Shown in pieces: positions 557 to 34,358 of a DNA stretch of 64,000 nt; position 1 is the first letter of the stretch, and the number at the start of each line of letters is the position of its first letter. The notes beneath the pieces were generated by a model. That model saw only the letters and a list, made by a program, of their open reading frames with translations, made no database searches and was not told the origin of the DNA. The DNA comes from Polyangium sp. 15x6 (GTDB lineage: Bacteria; Myxococcota_A; Polyangia; Polyangiales; Polyangiaceae), in the NCBI RefSeq assembly GCF_029960785.1, contig NZ_JASBQE010000031.1:1-64000 (forward strand), given 5' to 3'. The position numbers and the translations under genes are program-made.

Positions 557-665
557 TGTTCGATGAACTGCGCATCGCGCAGTTCATCGACCCCGGGTCC
601 AGCGCTTGCGCTGGTCCGGGTCCAGGGGCGGATAGCCCCGGTGGGGCCTGGGGCAACGCCCCAGC
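557..665. repeat. Half copy (right arm) of the dispersed hairpin-array element
   Basis: Four hairpins lie in a row. At 560-590, arms TCGATGAACTGCGC and its complement enclose loop ATC. Next is CCAGCGC-TT-GCGCTGG, then GGGGC-GGATA-GCCCC, then CTGGGGC-AAC-GCCCCAG at 648-664. The order and loops match the right arms of the full copies at 18351-18646 and 30033-30322. The left arm is absent; the 21-bp tandem repeat tract takes its place. It lies between two genes of the same orientation, unlike the full copies. Confidence 0.85.
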
Positions 666-17063: not shown

Positions 17064-18329
17064 ATGCGGGGCATGCCTCTCACGGTCACGTCGCAGGCCG
17101 CGACGCACGTCGGTCGCAAGCGCAAGCGCAACGAGGACAGTCACCTCGTGGACCCCGACCTCGGCCTGTACATCGTGGCCGACGGCATGGGTGGTCAGGC
17201 GGCCGGTGATGTCGCCTCGCGCCGCGCGGTCGACGTCGCGCGGGCCTACGTGGCCGACCGAGTCGAGGTGCTGACGCGCTTTGCGGAGAACCCGTCGCAG
17301 GAGAACCGCGTCGCCGCGCAAGAGCTCGTCGCAGCGGCAATCCAGGCTGCCTGCGCCGATCTCTGGAGCATGGCCGAGAACGACCCGAAGCTCCGCGGCA
17401 TGGGCACGACGATGGTGCTCTTCGCCGTCGCAGGGGATCGCGCCGTGGTCGGGCACGTGGGCGACAGCCGCGCCTACCTCCTGCGGCAGGACGTGGCGAA
17501 CCGGCTCACCGAGGATCACACGATCGTCGCGGCCTCGATCAAAAACGGGACGATGACGAAGGAGCAGGCGAAGATCAGCGCCCTGCGCAGCGTGCTCACG
17601 CGGGCCGTGGGGACGCAGGAGTCGGTGCAGGTCGACACGCTGCTCGTGGAGATCACGCCGGGCGACCTCTTCCTGATCTGCAGCGACGGCCTGCACGGTT
17701 ACATCGAGGACGAAGAGGTCCCCTTGCTCTGCGCGAGCGTACCGGACAACCTCGCGGAGCAGCTCATCGACTTCGCGAACGAGCGTGGCGGCCGGGACAA
17801 CATCACGGCAATCGTGCTCTCGTTCCACGGCGCGACGGCGGAGGAGCCCGAAGCGCTCACGAAGCACGAGGCGCTGCGCGGCATCCCGCTGTTCATGCAC
17901 CTCACCTACCGCGAGCAAGCCGAGATCCTCGCGATCTCGGAGGTGAAGAGCTACCCCCTCGGCGCAGCCATCGTGACCGAGGGCGAGCCCGGCGAGGACC
18001 TGTACGTGATCCTGCGCGGGCGCGTGGCCGTCGAGAAGGACAACGTCGCAATCACGACGATCATGACGGGTGGTTATTTCGGCGAGATGGGCCTCGTCGA
18101 CGACTCACGGCGCTCGGCCACGGTGCGGGCACTCGAGTCGGTGCGCACGATGGTCATCACACGAACGGACATGATGAACGTCATGCGACGCGAGCCAGTG
18201 CTCGCCGTGAAGCTGCTCTGGAGCTTCGTGCAGGGCCTCTCGCAGCGTCTGCGCACGGTGAACACCGAGCTCTCCGAAGCCCGCGCCGAGCTCTTCGAAG
18301 CACAAGGCGTCGCGCCGTACACGTCGTAG
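17064..18329 (+). CDS. PP2C-type Ser/Thr protein phosphatase fused to a cyclic-nucleotide-binding domain
   Basis: A 421-residue protein. Residues about 10-255 are a PP2C (PPM) phosphatase: RKRNEDSH, DGMGGQAAGDVAS with the metal aspartate, GTTMVLF, GHVGDSRAYLL, LTEDHT, ICSDGLHGYI and GGRDNITAIV are all present, so it should be active. Residues about 270-395 form a cNMP-binding domain (PLGAAIVTEGEPGEDLYVILRGRV, FGEMGLVDDSRRSATVRAL), where the phosphate-binding cassette resembles CRP-type FGEM...RSATV. The likely role is dephosphorylating targets of the many Hanks kinases in such a genome, possibly tuned by cAMP, c-di-GMP or another nucleotide. ATG 17064 or 17073 could be the start. Confidence 0.9.
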   Translation: MRGMPLTVTSQAATHVGRKRKRNEDSHLVDPDLGLYIVADGMGGQAAGDVASRRAVDVARAYVADRVEVLTRFAENPSQENRVAAQELVAAAIQAACADLWSMAENDPKLRGMGTTMVLFAVAGDRAVVGHVGDSRAYLLRQDVANRLTEDHTIVAASIKNGTMTKEQAKISALRSVLTRAVGTQESVQVDTLLVEITPGDLFLICSDGLHGYIEDEEVPLLCASVPDNLAEQLIDFANERGGRDNITAIVLSFHGATAEEPEALTKHEALRGIPLFMHLTYREQAEILAISEVKSYPLGAAIVTEGEPGEDLYVILRGRVAVEKDNVAITTIMTGGYFGEMGLVDDSRRSATVRALESVRTMVITRTDMMNVMRREPVLAVKLLWSFVQGLSQRLRTVNTELSEARAELFEAQGVAPYTS

Positions 18330-18350: not shown

Positions 18351-18646
18351 CCGGGGCGCTGCCCCGGACCCCGGCAGGGGCTATCCGCCCCTGCACCCGG
18401 ACCAGGCACGGCCTGGACCGAGGGGGGAAGAACTGCGCGATGCGCAGTTCTTCCCACGGGCCCGTGACAAGACCACGAAGGTCTTGTCCACACGTCGACG
18501 AGGGAGAGCAGGATCGTTGGTGGTCTTGTCAGCGGCTGTTCGATGAACTGCGCATCGCGCAGTTCATCGACCCCGAGTCCAGCGCTTGCGCTGGTCCGGG
18601 TCCCGGGGCGGACAGCCCCGGGTGGGGCCTGGGGCAAAGCCCCAGC
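18351..18646. repeat. Full copy of the mirror-symmetric hairpin-array element (between convergent genes)
   Basis: Fills most of the gene-free gap between the phosphatase (+) and boxB (-). Left arm hairpins: CCGGGGC-GCT-GCCCCGG (18351-18367), CAGGGGC-TATCC-GCCCCTG (18375-18393), CCAGGC-ACG-GCCTGG (18402-18416), and a 14-bp stem with loop GAT (18425-18455). The spacer has GACAAGACC-ACGAA-GGTCTTGTC (18466-18488). Right arm, same hairpins in reverse order and orientation: 14-bp stem with loop ATC (18540-18570), CCAGCGC-TT-GCGCTGG, CCCGGGGC-GGACA-GCCCCGGG (18602-18622), CTGGGGC-AAA-GCCCCAG (18629-18645). It may act as a bidirectional terminator or be a REP/MITE-like element. Confidence 0.88.
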
Positions 18647-18667: not shown

Positions 18668-20103
<1,436 letters not shown>

Positions 20104-28269: not shown

Positions 28270-30030
28270 GTGCTGGTCGCCCTCCGCGTCAAGAACTTCG
28301 TCCTCATGGATTCGCTCGAGCTCCGCCTCGAGCCTGGCTTCAACGTGCTCACCGGCGAGACCGGCGCGGGCAAGTCGATCGTCGTCGGCGCGCTCTCGCT
28401 CGTGCTCGGCGGCCGCGGCAACGCCGAGCAAGTGCGGCCCGGCGCCGACGAGGCCGAGGTCGAAGCGCTCTTCGATGTGACGGGCAGCGAGCGGCTCGCG
28501 ACGGCCCTCGAAGCAGCCGGCGTGTCCTCCGGCGGCGAGCTCGTCATCCGCCGCGTGGTGCAGCAAAACGGCCGATCGCGCGCGTACCTGAACGGGCGTC
28601 TCTGCACCGCGGGCGAGCTGCAAGCGCTCGCGTCGGAGCTCTGCGACGTGGCCTCGCAACACGAGAGCGTCGCGCTGACCGATCCCTCGACGCACCTCGG
28701 TTACCTCGATCGTTTCGGCCGTCTCTCGACCGCACGCGAGGCGCTCGCCGCGGAGGTCGAGAAGCTCGAGAAGGTCGTCGCCGAGATCCGCGAGGTGCGC
28801 GAAGCCGAGCGCGGGCGGGCCGAGCGCGAGGCGTTCCTCGGCTTCCAGCTCCAGGGCATCGACGCGGTGTCCCCGCGGCCCGGCGAGCTCGAAGAGCTCG
28901 CGGCCGACCGGCAGAGGTTGCGCCACGCCGGCCGGCTGCGCGAGCTGACCGAGCACGCCGCCGCGCGGCTCGATCAGGGCGAGCACGCGATCTGCGACGA
29001 GCTCGCGAAGCTCTCGAAGGATCTGCGCGCCGCCGCGGATCTCGATCCATCCCTCGAGGCGACGGCGAACTCGCTCGATGGTTTGTTCTCCGAGCTTCGC
29101 GAGATCGCCCGCGAGGTCGATCGATACGCCGAGCGCGCCGAGGCGAACCCGTCGCGGCTCTCGGAGATCGAGGACCGCATGTACCGGCTCGAAGGCCTGC
29201 TCCGGCAGCACGGGCCCACGGTCGACGACGTGCTCGCGGCGCGATCGCGGATCGCGGCGGAGCTCGAAGGGCTCGGCAACGTGGAGACGAAGCTCGAAGC
29301 GCTGGAGCACGAGCGCGATCGGCTCTTGCGCGCGGCAGGCGAGCGCGCACGGCAGCTCTCGCAGAAGCGGCGCGAGGCCGGCGAGAAGCTCGGCGCGTCG
29401 ATCGGCGGAGAGCTCGCCGATCTCGGCATGGGCGGCGCGCGCGTGATCGTCGACGTCGCGCCGCTCTCGGGTGACCGATCGGAGCTCGTCGTCGACGGCG
29501 CGCGTCTCGGTCGCGACGGCATCGACCGCGTGGAGTTCCTCATCGCGCCGAACAAGGGCATCGAGCCGCGCCCGCTGCGCAAGATCGCCTCGGGCGGCGA
29601 GCTCTCGCGCGCGCTGCTGGCGCTCAAGCGCACGCTCGCGGAGTCGGGGCCGGCGGGACTTTACGTGTTCGACGAGGTCGACGCCGGCGTCGGCGGCGCG
29701 GTGGCGGACAAGATCGGCCGCGCGATCGCGGACGTGGCGCGGCACCACCAGGTCCTCTGCATCACGCACCTCGCCACGATCGCGGCGTTCGCGGACGCGC
29801 ATTTCGTGGTGTCGAAGCAGGTCGACGGGCCGATCACGAAGAGCACGGTCAAGCGCGTCGAAGGCAAAGATCGCGTCGCGGAGGTCGCGCGCATGCTTGC
29901 GGGCGCGAAGGTCGGCCCGAGCGCGCTGAAGGCGGCCTCCGAGATGCTGGACGAGGCGAAGGCGCGTTCGGCGGCCGCCGCCGCGAGTCCGAAGCGCGGC
30001 GGCAAGGGCCGCGCTTCTTCTACAGCGTAG
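28270..30030 (+). CDS. recN: DNA repair ATPase RecN
   Basis: A 586-residue SMC-like protein that binds and tethers DNA ends at double-strand breaks. It begins ALRVKNFVLMDSLEL and has Walker A GETGAGKS at residues 31-38. A long coiled-coil middle part (about 150-370) is followed by the signature ASGGELSRALLALK near 440 and Walker B LYVFDEVDAGVGG. The Q-loop-like CITHLATIAAFAD is also present. GTG 28270 is the only start that keeps the family N-terminus. No LexA-like box was evident in the 55-bp upstream gap. The hairpin-array element begins three bases after the stop. Confidence 0.95.
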   Translation: MLVALRVKNFVLMDSLELRLEPGFNVLTGETGAGKSIVVGALSLVLGGRGNAEQVRPGADEAEVEALFDVTGSERLATALEAAGVSSGGELVIRRVVQQNGRSRAYLNGRLCTAGELQALASELCDVASQHESVALTDPSTHLGYLDRFGRLSTAREALAAEVEKLEKVVAEIREVREAERGRAEREAFLGFQLQGIDAVSPRPGELEELAADRQRLRHAGRLRELTEHAAARLDQGEHAICDELAKLSKDLRAAADLDPSLEATANSLDGLFSELREIAREVDRYAERAEANPSRLSEIEDRMYRLEGLLRQHGPTVDDVLAARSRIAAELEGLGNVETKLEALEHERDRLLRAAGERARQLSQKRREAGEKLGASIGGELADLGMGGARVIVDVAPLSGDRSELVVDGARLGRDGIDRVEFLIAPNKGIEPRPLRKIASGGELSRALLALKRTLAESGPAGLYVFDEVDAGVGGAVADKIGRAIADVARHHQVLCITHLATIAAFADAHFVVSKQVDGPITKSTVKRVEGKDRVAEVARMLAGAKVGPSALKAASEMLDEAKARSAAAAASPKRGGKGRASSTA

Positions 30031-30032
30031 CG

Positions 30033-30322
30033 CCGGGGTTTCACCCCGGACCCGACCAGGGGCTATCCGCCCCTGGACCCGGACCAGCGCAAGCGCTGGA
30101 CCCGGGGCGACAGCGCGCGATGCGCGCTGTCGACAGGGAAGGCGTCCCCAGCACGTACGGCAGCGCTGTTGTCTCGATGGGCAAGGCCTTTGTGGTCTTG
30201 CCACGGCCTCTGTTCGATGAACTGCGCATCGCGCAGTTCATCGACCCCGAGTCCAGCGCTTGCGCTGGTCCGGGGTGCAGGGGGCGGACAGCCCCCTGCT
30301 GGGGTGCGGGGCAACGCCCCGC
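30033..30322. repeat. Full copy of the mirror-symmetric hairpin-array element (between convergent genes)
   Basis: Fills the gap between recN (+) and the thyX-like gene (-). Left arm: CCGGGGT-TTC-ACCCCGG (30033-30049), CCAGGGGC-TATCC-GCCCCTGG (30056-30076), CCAGCGC-AA-GCGCTGG (30084-30099), CGACAGCGCGC-GAT-GCGCGCTGTCG (30108-30132). Spacer hairpin: GGCAAGGCC-TTTGT-GGTCTTGCC (30180-30202). Right arm: 14-bp stem with loop ATC (30214-30244), CCAGCGC-TT-GCGCTGG, CAGGGGGC-GGACA-GCCCCCTG (30278-30298), GCGGGGC-AAC-GCCCCGC (30306-30322). The layout equals the copy at 18351 although many stem bases differ. Confidence 0.88.
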
Positions 30323-30336
30323 GCATCCCGTGGGGG

Positions 30337-31863
30337 TCAGGCGCGCGAGAGCGTGTAGTCGCCGAGATCCACGCGGACGAGACCTTCGAGCCAGGGGTGC
30401 ACCGCGATCGCCGCGCGGAAGAGCCCCTGCGCGATGCGCCGGTAGCTCGCGTGCCCTTGCCGCGCCGATCGCAGCTCGATCACGTGGAAAAGCTCGCGCA
30501 GGTTGAGCGTCCAGAGCGTGCGGATCCGGAAGCCGAGCGGCACCGCGTACTGCGCTTCGAGCGGCCGTTGGCTCTCGAGCACCTCCCACGCGTCGCACGC
30601 TGCGACCATCGCGTCCGTGTAGGCCCGAGCGAGCTCGAGCTCCTCGAGCTCCGCGGGCGTCTCGAAGCCGAGCCGGCACGTGAGCCGCTGCGTCGCCGGC
30701 AGGAGCATGCGATGCCTCTGCAGATCTCGGTACGCGCCGTAATCGAGCATCAGCTCGAACGTCATCGTCGTCGCCTCGAAGCCACGCGGCACAGGATCGT
30801 ACGCGCCGCGACGCGCGAGCGACGCGCGCACGACGTCTTCGAGCTCGCGCGACGTCGCGTGCCGCATCGCCTCCGTGAGCCCGCGGGCGTGCACGTTCGG
30901 CTCGCTGCTGTCGTACGCGAGTGCGAGCACGATCCGTTCGAGCGCGTCCTTATCGTGACGCACGAGCCGCACTGGCTGCCCGACCACGTTCGTCGCGCCG
31001 GCGTCCCAGGGGCCGGGATCGTAGATCGAGCGCAGCTTGTCCCCCACGTCGGCCCGCTGCGCGGATCGGTGCTCGCTCCGCGCAGCGTACTTGACGAGGG
31101 TCGGCGTCACGGTGCGCGCGGCCGCGTGCATGCCTGTCGCGATCTTCCGGACCTCCGCGAGCGGATGCGAGAGCATCTTCGTGAGCAGCGCTTCGAGCGC
31201 GCGCGCGTTCGCGGTGAGACCGAGGTTCGTCCGCGTCCCGGCCGGCAGGAGCCCGCGCAACAGATCACAGGCATGCGCGCGGATCGCCGCTGCATGCGCT
31301 GCCTCCGACGCGCCCGGCGGACGCAGCACGCGCACGCGCAGCGCATCCATCACACGCGCCATGAGATCGACGTACGTCGTGAAAAGGCGCTCTGCGCTCG
31401 CGCGGTACGTCTGGCCCAATGACCCTTCGAGCTCGGGCAGGTTCACGAAACTGTTCCGATCGAAGACCACGTAGCGCGTGCTCTTCTCGGTGTACGAGCC
31501 GAGCCTGAGGTCCTCGATCACCTTCGAGGCCACGATGCTCACGTTCTCGATCGCGAGGTGCACGACCGCGTGCTCCGCGACCGACGCGTGCCCGTAGCCA
31601 ACGACCCACTTTTCGTGGAACGCGCGCGCCTTCTCGGTCGCGAGCCCGAACGAGGGGCGCGTCGTCACGCCCTCCTCGACGTCGAGCTCCTGATCCGCGA
31701 GCAGGCGCGCGAGGTTCGTCCGCAGGTCGTCGCGGCTGCGCGAGTAGTAGGCGAAGAGGACGGCGATCACCTCCTCGGGCAAACCCGAGAGTGCGAAAAC
31801 GTCGTCGGTCAGGCTGGAGACGTACGGCGCAATGCGGCCACGCGCAGCTTCATCGAGGGACAT
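30337..31863 (-). CDS. Tandem ThyX-like protein (FAD-dependent thymidylate synthase family, two divergent halves)
   Basis: A 508-residue protein, about twice the length of ThyX. The N-terminal half has ASVAEHAVVHLAIENVS and then LRLGSYTEKSTRYV, which lines up with the SxNExSxRY end of the ThyX signature but lacks its RHR. The C-terminal half has RDLQRHRMLLPATQRLTCR, which keeps the RHR but not the Ser/Glu/Ser part. Each half also has the flanking helices of the family (LLPAGTRTNLGLTANARALEALL; YAVPLGFRIRTLWTLNLRELFHVIELRS). ThyX makes dTMP from dUMP with FAD and methylenetetrahydrofolate; whether this one does is open. It follows map by 15 bp on the same strand. Confidence 0.8.
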   Translation of the reverse strand: MSLDEAARGRIAPYVSSLTDDVFALSGLPEEVIAVLFAYYSRSRDDLRTNLARLLADQELDVEEGVTTRPSFGLATEKARAFHEKWVVGYGHASVAEHAVVHLAIENVSIVASKVIEDLRLGSYTEKSTRYVVFDRNSFVNLPELEGSLGQTYRASAERLFTTYVDLMARVMDALRVRVLRPPGASEAAHAAAIRAHACDLLRGLLPAGTRTNLGLTANARALEALLTKMLSHPLAEVRKIATGMHAAARTVTPTLVKYAARSEHRSAQRADVGDKLRSIYDPGPWDAGATNVVGQPVRLVRHDKDALERIVLALAYDSSEPNVHARGLTEAMRHATSRELEDVVRASLARRGAYDPVPRGFEATTMTFELMLDYGAYRDLQRHRMLLPATQRLTCRLGFETPAELEELELARAYTDAMVAACDAWEVLESQRPLEAQYAVPLGFRIRTLWTLNLRELFHVIELRSARQGHASYRRIAQGLFRAAIAVHPWLEGLVRVDLGDYTLSRA

Positions 31864-34325: not shown

Positions 34326-34358
34326 AGGGCCCCGCCAAACGCGGGGCCCTTCGCTTTT
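34326..34358 (+). terminator. Rho-independent terminator
   Basis: Perfect 10-bp stem AGGGCCCCGC / GCGGGGCCCT with loop CAAAC, followed by TCGCTTTT. It lies eight bases after the stop of the secreted-protein gene. It is the clearest intrinsic terminator in the window. Confidence 0.9.

Follow-up and report, generated by a model that had tools for sequence, protein, structure and literature searches.

The closest described relatives of the element reported here are the REP (or PU) sequences and BIMEs of enterobacteria and pseudomonads, which are dispersed extragenic palindromes present in high copy. As described in the accessible part of PMC3733652, these occur as inverted pairs that can be heterodimers, with alternative, complementary stem residues, and they are placed convergently near 3' ends. 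A REP unit spans ~20-60 bp according to the accessible part of PMC3116915, which also covers the REPIN and RAYT system, in which two inverted units and a spacer seem to replicate as one, and the ERIC (or RU) and MITE-like repeats, which are palindromic and intergenic and fall within the 100-400 bp range of non-autonomous transposons. Hairpins between convergent genes are also found in bidirectional Rho-independent terminators. It is in these respects that the Polyangium element resembles what is known. It differs from REP and BIME repeats in that its arm is an array of four hairpins over ~102 bp, carries no common GTAG or CGTC tag and has no linked transposase that was found; from REPINs in that its units are four-hairpin arrays and that three of six carrier genomes are without a Y1_Tnp match; from ERIC/RU repeats in that no target duplication was found, that it lies close to stop codons and that its hairpins are separate; and from Rho-independent terminators in that its 706 hairpin tails are without a T-tract and that it is repeated, variably present and multi-hairpin. 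As to tags, in a set of 114 arms CTAC (equivalent to GTAG) occurs in 28 outer flanks, CGTC and GACG occur in 8 and 23 outer flanks and in 21 and 9 inner flanks, respectively, and one H1 type has GTAG just outside H1. Because neither a common tag nor a linked transposase was found, and because the element is compound, it is kept apart from membership of the REP/BIME/REPIN group; this group is its nearest kind, and the element is a BIME-like variant rather than a member. The accessible part of PMC2267715 adds nothing on this phylum, and no relevant description of Polyangium, Sorangium or myxobacterial repeats was found in the open-licence literature, outside which most subscription papers lie.

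The window, that is, the whole stretch of 64,000 nucleotides that was analysed, belongs to a genome (G000) of 13.4 Mb in 275 contigs and holds two full copies and one solo arm (Table 1). The full copies lie where an earlier note on this DNA had placed them, at 18351-18646 and 30033-30322, and the half copy described there is likewise present, at 556-662 (562-662 by the arm model). That note had each full copy made of four hairpins and the same four reversed; the plan stands but the letters do not, the two arms being of different types, above all in H4. Both full copies sit in convergent gaps, as had been said, with the stop codons of the facing genes (18329, 18668, 30030 and 30337) 2-21 bp from their ends, the neighbouring genes having been called by a codon-usage script. 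The product of the gene at 28270-30030 is presumably RecN, and the gene ending at 18668 has a sub-threshold Pfam match. The half copy breaks the stop-codon rule, in that a gene start lies 270 bp from its H1 end and the end of a weakly scored ORF touches its H4 end. Folding of 30033-30322 is far more stable than that of shuffled sequences (z -13.0 and -12.9 for the two strands; 0/100 shuffles as stable on each), as is that of the + strand of 18351-18646 (z -13.1; 0/100). A repeat search returned the inverted arms of the first copy as two pairs, 18341-18405/18591-18655 (78% complementary) and 18406-18453/18542-18589 (79%), and an inverted pair in the second copy at 30078-30107/30245-30274 (97%).

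Table 1. Parts of the element at 30033-30322, arms of the other copies and neighbouring genes (window coordinates).
Feature	Position	Strand	Sequence or type	Evidence and remarks
Outer left end, conserved	30024-30034		GGCGCTACGCT on - strand	Contains the left gene's stop TAG (30028-30030)
H1 left	30033-30049	+	CCGGGG-TTTCA-CCCCGG	Sequence and arm alignment
H2 left	30056-30076	+	CCAGGGGC-TATCC-GCCCCTGG	
H3 left	30084-30099	+	CCAGCGC-AA-GCGCTGG	
H4 left	30108-30132	+	CGACAGCGCGC-GAT-GCGCGCTGTCG	GACAG type
Inter-arm spacer	30133-30213			Own hairpin H5 at 30180-30202 (GGCAAG...CTTGCC)
H4 right	30214-30244	+	TCGATGAACTGCGC-ATC-GCGCAGTTCATCGA	GATGAAC type; 27-nt core
H3 right	30253-30268	+	CCAGCGC-TT-GCGCTGG	
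H2 right	30277-30299	+	GCAGGGGGC-GGACA-GCCCCCTGC	
H1 right	30306-30322	+	GCGGGGC-AAC-GCCCCGC	
Left arm, whole	30035-30133	-		nhmmer arm model 65.7 bits over 30035-30125, then extended to model end
Right arm, whole	30216-30320	+		nhmmer arm model 80.3 bits
Left convergent neighbour, SMC/RecN-type ATPase	28270-30030	+		PF02463 1.4e-19; context, outside element
Right convergent neighbour, Thy1/thyX-like	30337-31863	-		PF02511 5.1e-47; context
Left arm, other full copy	18353-18453	-	GAAG-type H4	nhmmer arm model 81.2 bits over 18354-18453, then extended
Right arm, other full copy	18542-18643	+	GATGAAC-type H4	Arm model 91.0 bits
Left neighbour of other full copy	17064-18329	+		PP2C phosphatase and cyclic-nucleotide-binding domains (PF00027, PF13672); context
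Solo arm (half copy)	562-662	+	GATGAAC-type H4	Arm model 90.0 bits

A full element consists of two inverted arms of ~102 bp, each with hairpins H1-H4, flanking a spacer, and comes to ~300 bp and about nine hairpins. On the model strand the order within an arm is H4, H3, H2, H1; in other words, the order met from the neighbouring gene is stop-H1-H2-H3-H4. A conserved end reaches ~11 nt beyond H1, most clearly in one H1 type (GGCGCTACGCT), after which conservation is at background, and since this end extends outside H1 the TAG of the window's left gene lies inside the element. The arms are 70-124 bp apart in 20 full copies and 38-163 bp apart in the named loci, with inverted GGTCTTG/CAAGACC motifs in the spacers between them. 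Each hairpin slot is occupied by one of a few alternative versions, giving 58 combinations in 118 arms (with 'other' counted as a version), and the arms are mosaics of these alternative hairpins with compensatory changes in their stems. Indeed, standard pairs fill 93.5% of the stem pair cells of the arm alignment, and changes on both sides of a pair affect 14 pairs and 104 cells, against 34 such cells in shuffles that ignore relatedness (0/500 as high) and at most 28 in slid controls that keep it, the structure having been derived from the same sequences. One of five covariation measures, that of further pair types, gave no excess over shuffles (96/500). Among the stem mismatches of the 118 arms, 15 are of the G-U type and 2 of the A-C type when read on the H4-to-H1 strand; this might point to the strand that folds, and the counts, not being independent, are set aside from the argument.

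The two arms of an element are usually different. Exactly one GATGAAC H4 arm is present in 36 of 41 full elements, a figure reached by 0/100000 permutations given the 38 such arms among 82, and the same holds for 30/35 full elements of a smaller set; the element is therefore heterotypic in most cases and no plain mirror. Solo arms have an H4 of their own, the ATCGAC type, which is found in 15/30 of them and in 0/82 arms of full elements, such that many solo arms form a sub-family and are not simply broken full elements. The named loci, chosen by the exact GATGAAC core, were left out of the pairing counts, as they were out of the placement counts below; arm matches of 60 bp or less were dropped, and the arms of long 'split' copies were counted as two solo arms.

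The modular, non-coding family proposed in the earlier note has many further copies, in this genome and in its relatives. A query with the 290-bp element returned at least 98 match pieces in G000, the best 40 of its 439 candidate places having been scored; where an element gave inverted pieces, each was counted. Among 59 genomes, strong matches occur in 6/6 Polyangium (5/5 besides the window's own) and in 0/31 genomes from other genera of the Polyangiaceae; order-level matches in G048 (48 bp) and G055 (23 bp) were dismissed as chance-like. The covariance-model search that had been put forward as a check matched 6 of 44 genomes, all of them Polyangium, with at least 91 places scored in five of these. 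The exact 27-nt H4 core occurs in at least 73 stretches, those listed all in Polyangium records, with P. fumosum DSM 14668, Polyangium sp. y55x31 and Polyangium sp. 6x1 as carriers among the matches listed. An arm search gave no match in 200 kb each of two genomes from other genera (G036 and G024), the full element matched no plasmid or phage record at E 1e-5, and the exact core was found in no viral contig. As far as searched, therefore, the element is private to Polyangium, a genus of soil bacteria. Within the genus the arms are dense, with 35 in 452 kb of G000 (77 per Mb), 39 in 571 kb of G004 (68 per Mb) and 44 in 800 kb of G005 (55 per Mb), which is 118 arms in 1.82 Mb, made up of 41 full elements, 30 solo arms and 6 stretch-end arms. 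Extrapolation from 3.4% of the genome gives G000 roughly a thousand arms, an estimate that may be somewhat high since the sampled stretches were chosen around known copies. Of the first 40 G000 matches listed, eleven reach a contig end or come to within 60 bp of it (C36, C73 at both ends, C60, C254, C155, C25, C57, C6, C47 and C34); the repeat thus probably breaks the G000 assembly, and copy counts in draft genomes are low.

Copies are placed with regard to gene ends, and the two outcomes held in the earlier note to count against its reading, an absence of further copies and an indifference to gene ends, did not occur. Among 57 elements in 1.606 Mb (4 stretch-end arms excluded, as were 6 from the contexts of the 118-arm set), the gap is convergent for 40, tandem for 13 and divergent for 4, the expected convergent share being 16% by free length (p about 2e-19) or 18% by gap number. 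Even in tandem gaps, 9/9 full elements lie 4-32 bp downstream of a stop. A scan from -60 to 200 bp shows a stop facing H1 in 82 of 112 arms, at a median of 20 bp and in nine in ten of the 82 within 32 bp; the other 30/112 have no facing stop in that range. In ten arms the stop lies within the first 12 nt, and in five of these, the window's left gene included, its TAG is supplied by the conserved end RGCGCTACGC, two of the five being an orthologous pair. Isolated convergent solo arms have their H1 end closer to a stop in 14/17 cases. The residual gap around 25 full convergent elements has a median of 48 bp, while free convergent gaps have a median of 620 bp weighted by length; the elements are therefore not simply where there is most room, although the 48 bp is remarkable only against the length-weighted expectation, unweighted free convergent gaps also being short (median 26 bp by number). 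The 61 full copies of the named loci lie in 35 convergent, 15 tandem and 2 divergent contexts, with 9 at edges. This placement may merely reflect where insertion is tolerated.

The element is present or absent at orthologous sites, as seen when orthologous neighbour pairs, defined by reciprocal best hits, are compared. Between G000 and G004, 49 convergent gaps are occupied in both genomes in 12 cases, in G000 only in 2, in G004 only in 1 and in neither in 34, with occupation of 0/170 tandem and 1/48 divergent gaps; between G000 and G005 the corresponding figures for 34 convergent gaps are 4, 7, 2 (G005 only) and 21, with 1/128 tandem and 1/33 divergent; and between G004 and G005, for 40 convergent gaps, they are 6, 6 (G004 only), 1 (G005 only) and 27, with 150 tandem gaps of which 2 are filled in both and 1 in G005 only, and 0/39 divergent. 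Many orthologous genes are without the element. Nineteen convergent comparisons, with some overlap between species pairs, set a filled gap against an empty one; the empty gap measures 1-45 bp in 13 and 106-589 bp in the remainder, the 589-bp gap holding arm remains and so being no clean empty site. At one clear site a full element stands in G000 and G004, the gap is 10-18 bp in G002, G003 and G005, and the genes overlap in G001. Beside the solo arm L117 (2239-2339; G000 C144:102222-102389) the upstream gene has final codons and a stop unlike those in G004 and G005, both of which are without an arm at that site.

Where both genomes are filled, a full element is closer to other copies within its genome than to its orthologue. 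There are 25 orthologous element pairs, 13 full-full, 8 full-solo and 4 solo-solo. In 13/13 of the full-full pairs a same-genome copy matches better than the orthologue does, and 6/13 show their best match in turned-round orientation; the orthologue is best in 1/8 full-solo pairs and in 2/4 solo-solo pairs, and not in the other two. Identity between G000 and G004 full-full pairs is 75-89% (7 pairs), against a median of 91.8% for the last 300 nt of the genes beside shared sites (24 ends), which alone would prove little; it is the comparison with same-genome copies that carries the argument, because non-coding DNA diverges faster than coding DNA. At one site the outer hairpins are alike between species and the inner ones different. 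This suggests that other copies have overwritten the orthologous full elements, although a gap may instead have taken up an element more than once.

The earlier note's observation is thus confirmed and its interpretation partly supported, in that the family is tied to gene ends, has paired stem changes and is REP/BIME-like in design. Our preferred reading, which we think probable though well short of assured, is of a compound palindromic repeat with a REP/BIME-like mode of working, whose copies multiply through insertion and conversion and by which each of two facing genes is provided with a hairpin at its 3' end. Entry of a copy into a short convergent gap would leave no target duplication that can be seen, and may be the work of a single-strand transposase that acts in trans or has since been lost. 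Later ectopic recombination between copies would replace modules or whole elements, the inverted arms allowing this in both orientations. From the inverted layout both facing mRNAs would receive the same 3' order, stop-H1-H2-H3-H4, and the resulting two-way 3'-end structure may limit read-through into the facing gene, guard the mRNA 3' end from exonucleases, or both. In this regard, ribosomes are stalled by REPs that lie no more than 15 nt from a stop (PMC12306157, accessible part), and a terminator only a few bases past a gene is repressed, its action being better further downstream (PMC4824070, accessible part). Hairpins in series would leave some structure free while the terminating ribosome covers H1, and by analogy the array could be a way round the repression of terminators close to a gene.

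An account in terms of termination only, with the family kept as bidirectional terminators and spread by recombination, is unlikely, if a serious possibility. The convergent placement would suit it, and other hairpins are enriched in element-free convergent gaps too, with 22 in 94 gaps, or 1.10 per kb as against 0.34 in tandem and 0.09 in divergent gaps and 0.03-0.06 in shuffled sequence. The 22 include a few that resemble arm remains (C144 4937 and D5_50 69912) and one orthologous hairpin counted twice, so that they offer no more than a hint that 3'-end hairpins matter in Polyangium. Convergent gaps of the two other genera (200 kb each) contain hairpins of at least nine pairs in 0/15 (G036) and 2/21 (G024) cases, compared with 21/94 element-free ones in Polyangium. 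On the other hand, a perfect hairpin of at least nine pairs is absent from 73/94 of these element-free convergent gaps (20-1500 bp), which speaks against termination as the sole purpose, and so do the tails of the element's own hairpins, 0/706 of which have five or more T in eight; a canonical intrinsic terminator is not supported. The corresponding figure for the hairpins of element-free gaps is 4/44 tails, and a terminator scan gave no site inside either full copy. Separately, a hairpin AGGGCCCCGC..GCGGGGCCCT lies at 34326-34350 of the window, in an element-free convergent gap, and also in a sister species (G004 contig C51, 53136); further convergent gaps contain other AGGG...CCCT hairpins.

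The next alternative dispenses with any service to the host and takes the element for a non-autonomous repeat that is purely selfish and owes its movement to a transposase, whether single-strand (Y1/HUH-type) or other; gene ends would be its sites of least harm, and the hairpins would serve as DNA for enzyme recognition. We consider this doubtful. Y1 enzymes are not expected to produce target duplications, and direct repeats of 4-8 nt are indeed no more frequent than in shuffled pairs across 98 full elements, ~58 of which come from named loci, with some possibly duplicating G004 copies and some duplications possibly lost in converted copies. The two different element ends and the many closely similar copies in G000 and G004 also suit a selfish repeat, as does the occurrence of REP repeats within 20 bp of convergent 3' ends, also as heterodimers (PMC3733652, accessible part). 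Against it, Y1_Tnp (PF01797) is absent from 3/6 Polyangium genomes, four loci of 3.2-3.4 kb around its matches have no arm at E 1, and the IS605-type TnpB zinc ribbon (PF07282) is present in 0/6; a RAYT/Y1 transposase as the driver, for which the earlier note had proposed to look, was rejected on the first two of these grounds. Moreover, random insertion in spare DNA would favour long gaps, yet the residual gap falls far below the length-weighted median. No transposase was recognised inside the long copies. Four of these in P. fumosum (L039, L047, L056 and L092) have 591-760 bp between their arms and no called gene, L039 and L047 showing tandem sub-repeats by eye; a fifth, L150 (G005 C1, about 7870127-7871493), has 1169 bp between its arms with a 200-aa ORF that is HAD-like by eye, and is perhaps a gene caught between two arms.

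A bolder form of our reading would make the element a partner or parasite of genomes of a new class, in the shape of a hairpin-array cassette with two ends that settles in tight convergent stop junctions, supplies 3' ends and, for some genes, even the stop codon, and is renewed mainly by ectopic recombination in either orientation with no dedicated transposase; we hold this to be distinctly improbable. A DDE-type MITE with the arms as terminal inverted repeats is very improbable indeed: the size of ~300 bp, the long inverted ends, the high copy number and the lack of recognised coding capacity would fit, but the target duplications expected of a MITE were not found in the 98 full elements, solo arms have H4 types of their own, the four long copies hold no called gene and the ORF of the G005 long copy is HAD-like by eye. 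Hardly any credence can be given to a structured RNA or ribozyme acting in trans from many encoded copies. The strong folding and covariation speak for it, but no Rfam family matches the window at the gathering score (12 sub-threshold matches at 29950-30400), and a cis element agrees better with the placement at 3' ends and with a symmetry that is nearly that of a mirror.

On the preferred reading, that of a REP/BIME-like repeat serving gene ends, the element may shape where neighbouring messages end. With it the known small palindromic repeats gain an abundant family of compound structure, from a bacterial group for which the literature search found no such description. Its placement at stop codons, its filled and empty sites and the six related genomes that carry it are natural replicates for two old questions, which are thereby made testable, namely whether gene 3' ends are served by repeats of this kind, and by what route the repeats spread without a linked transposase.
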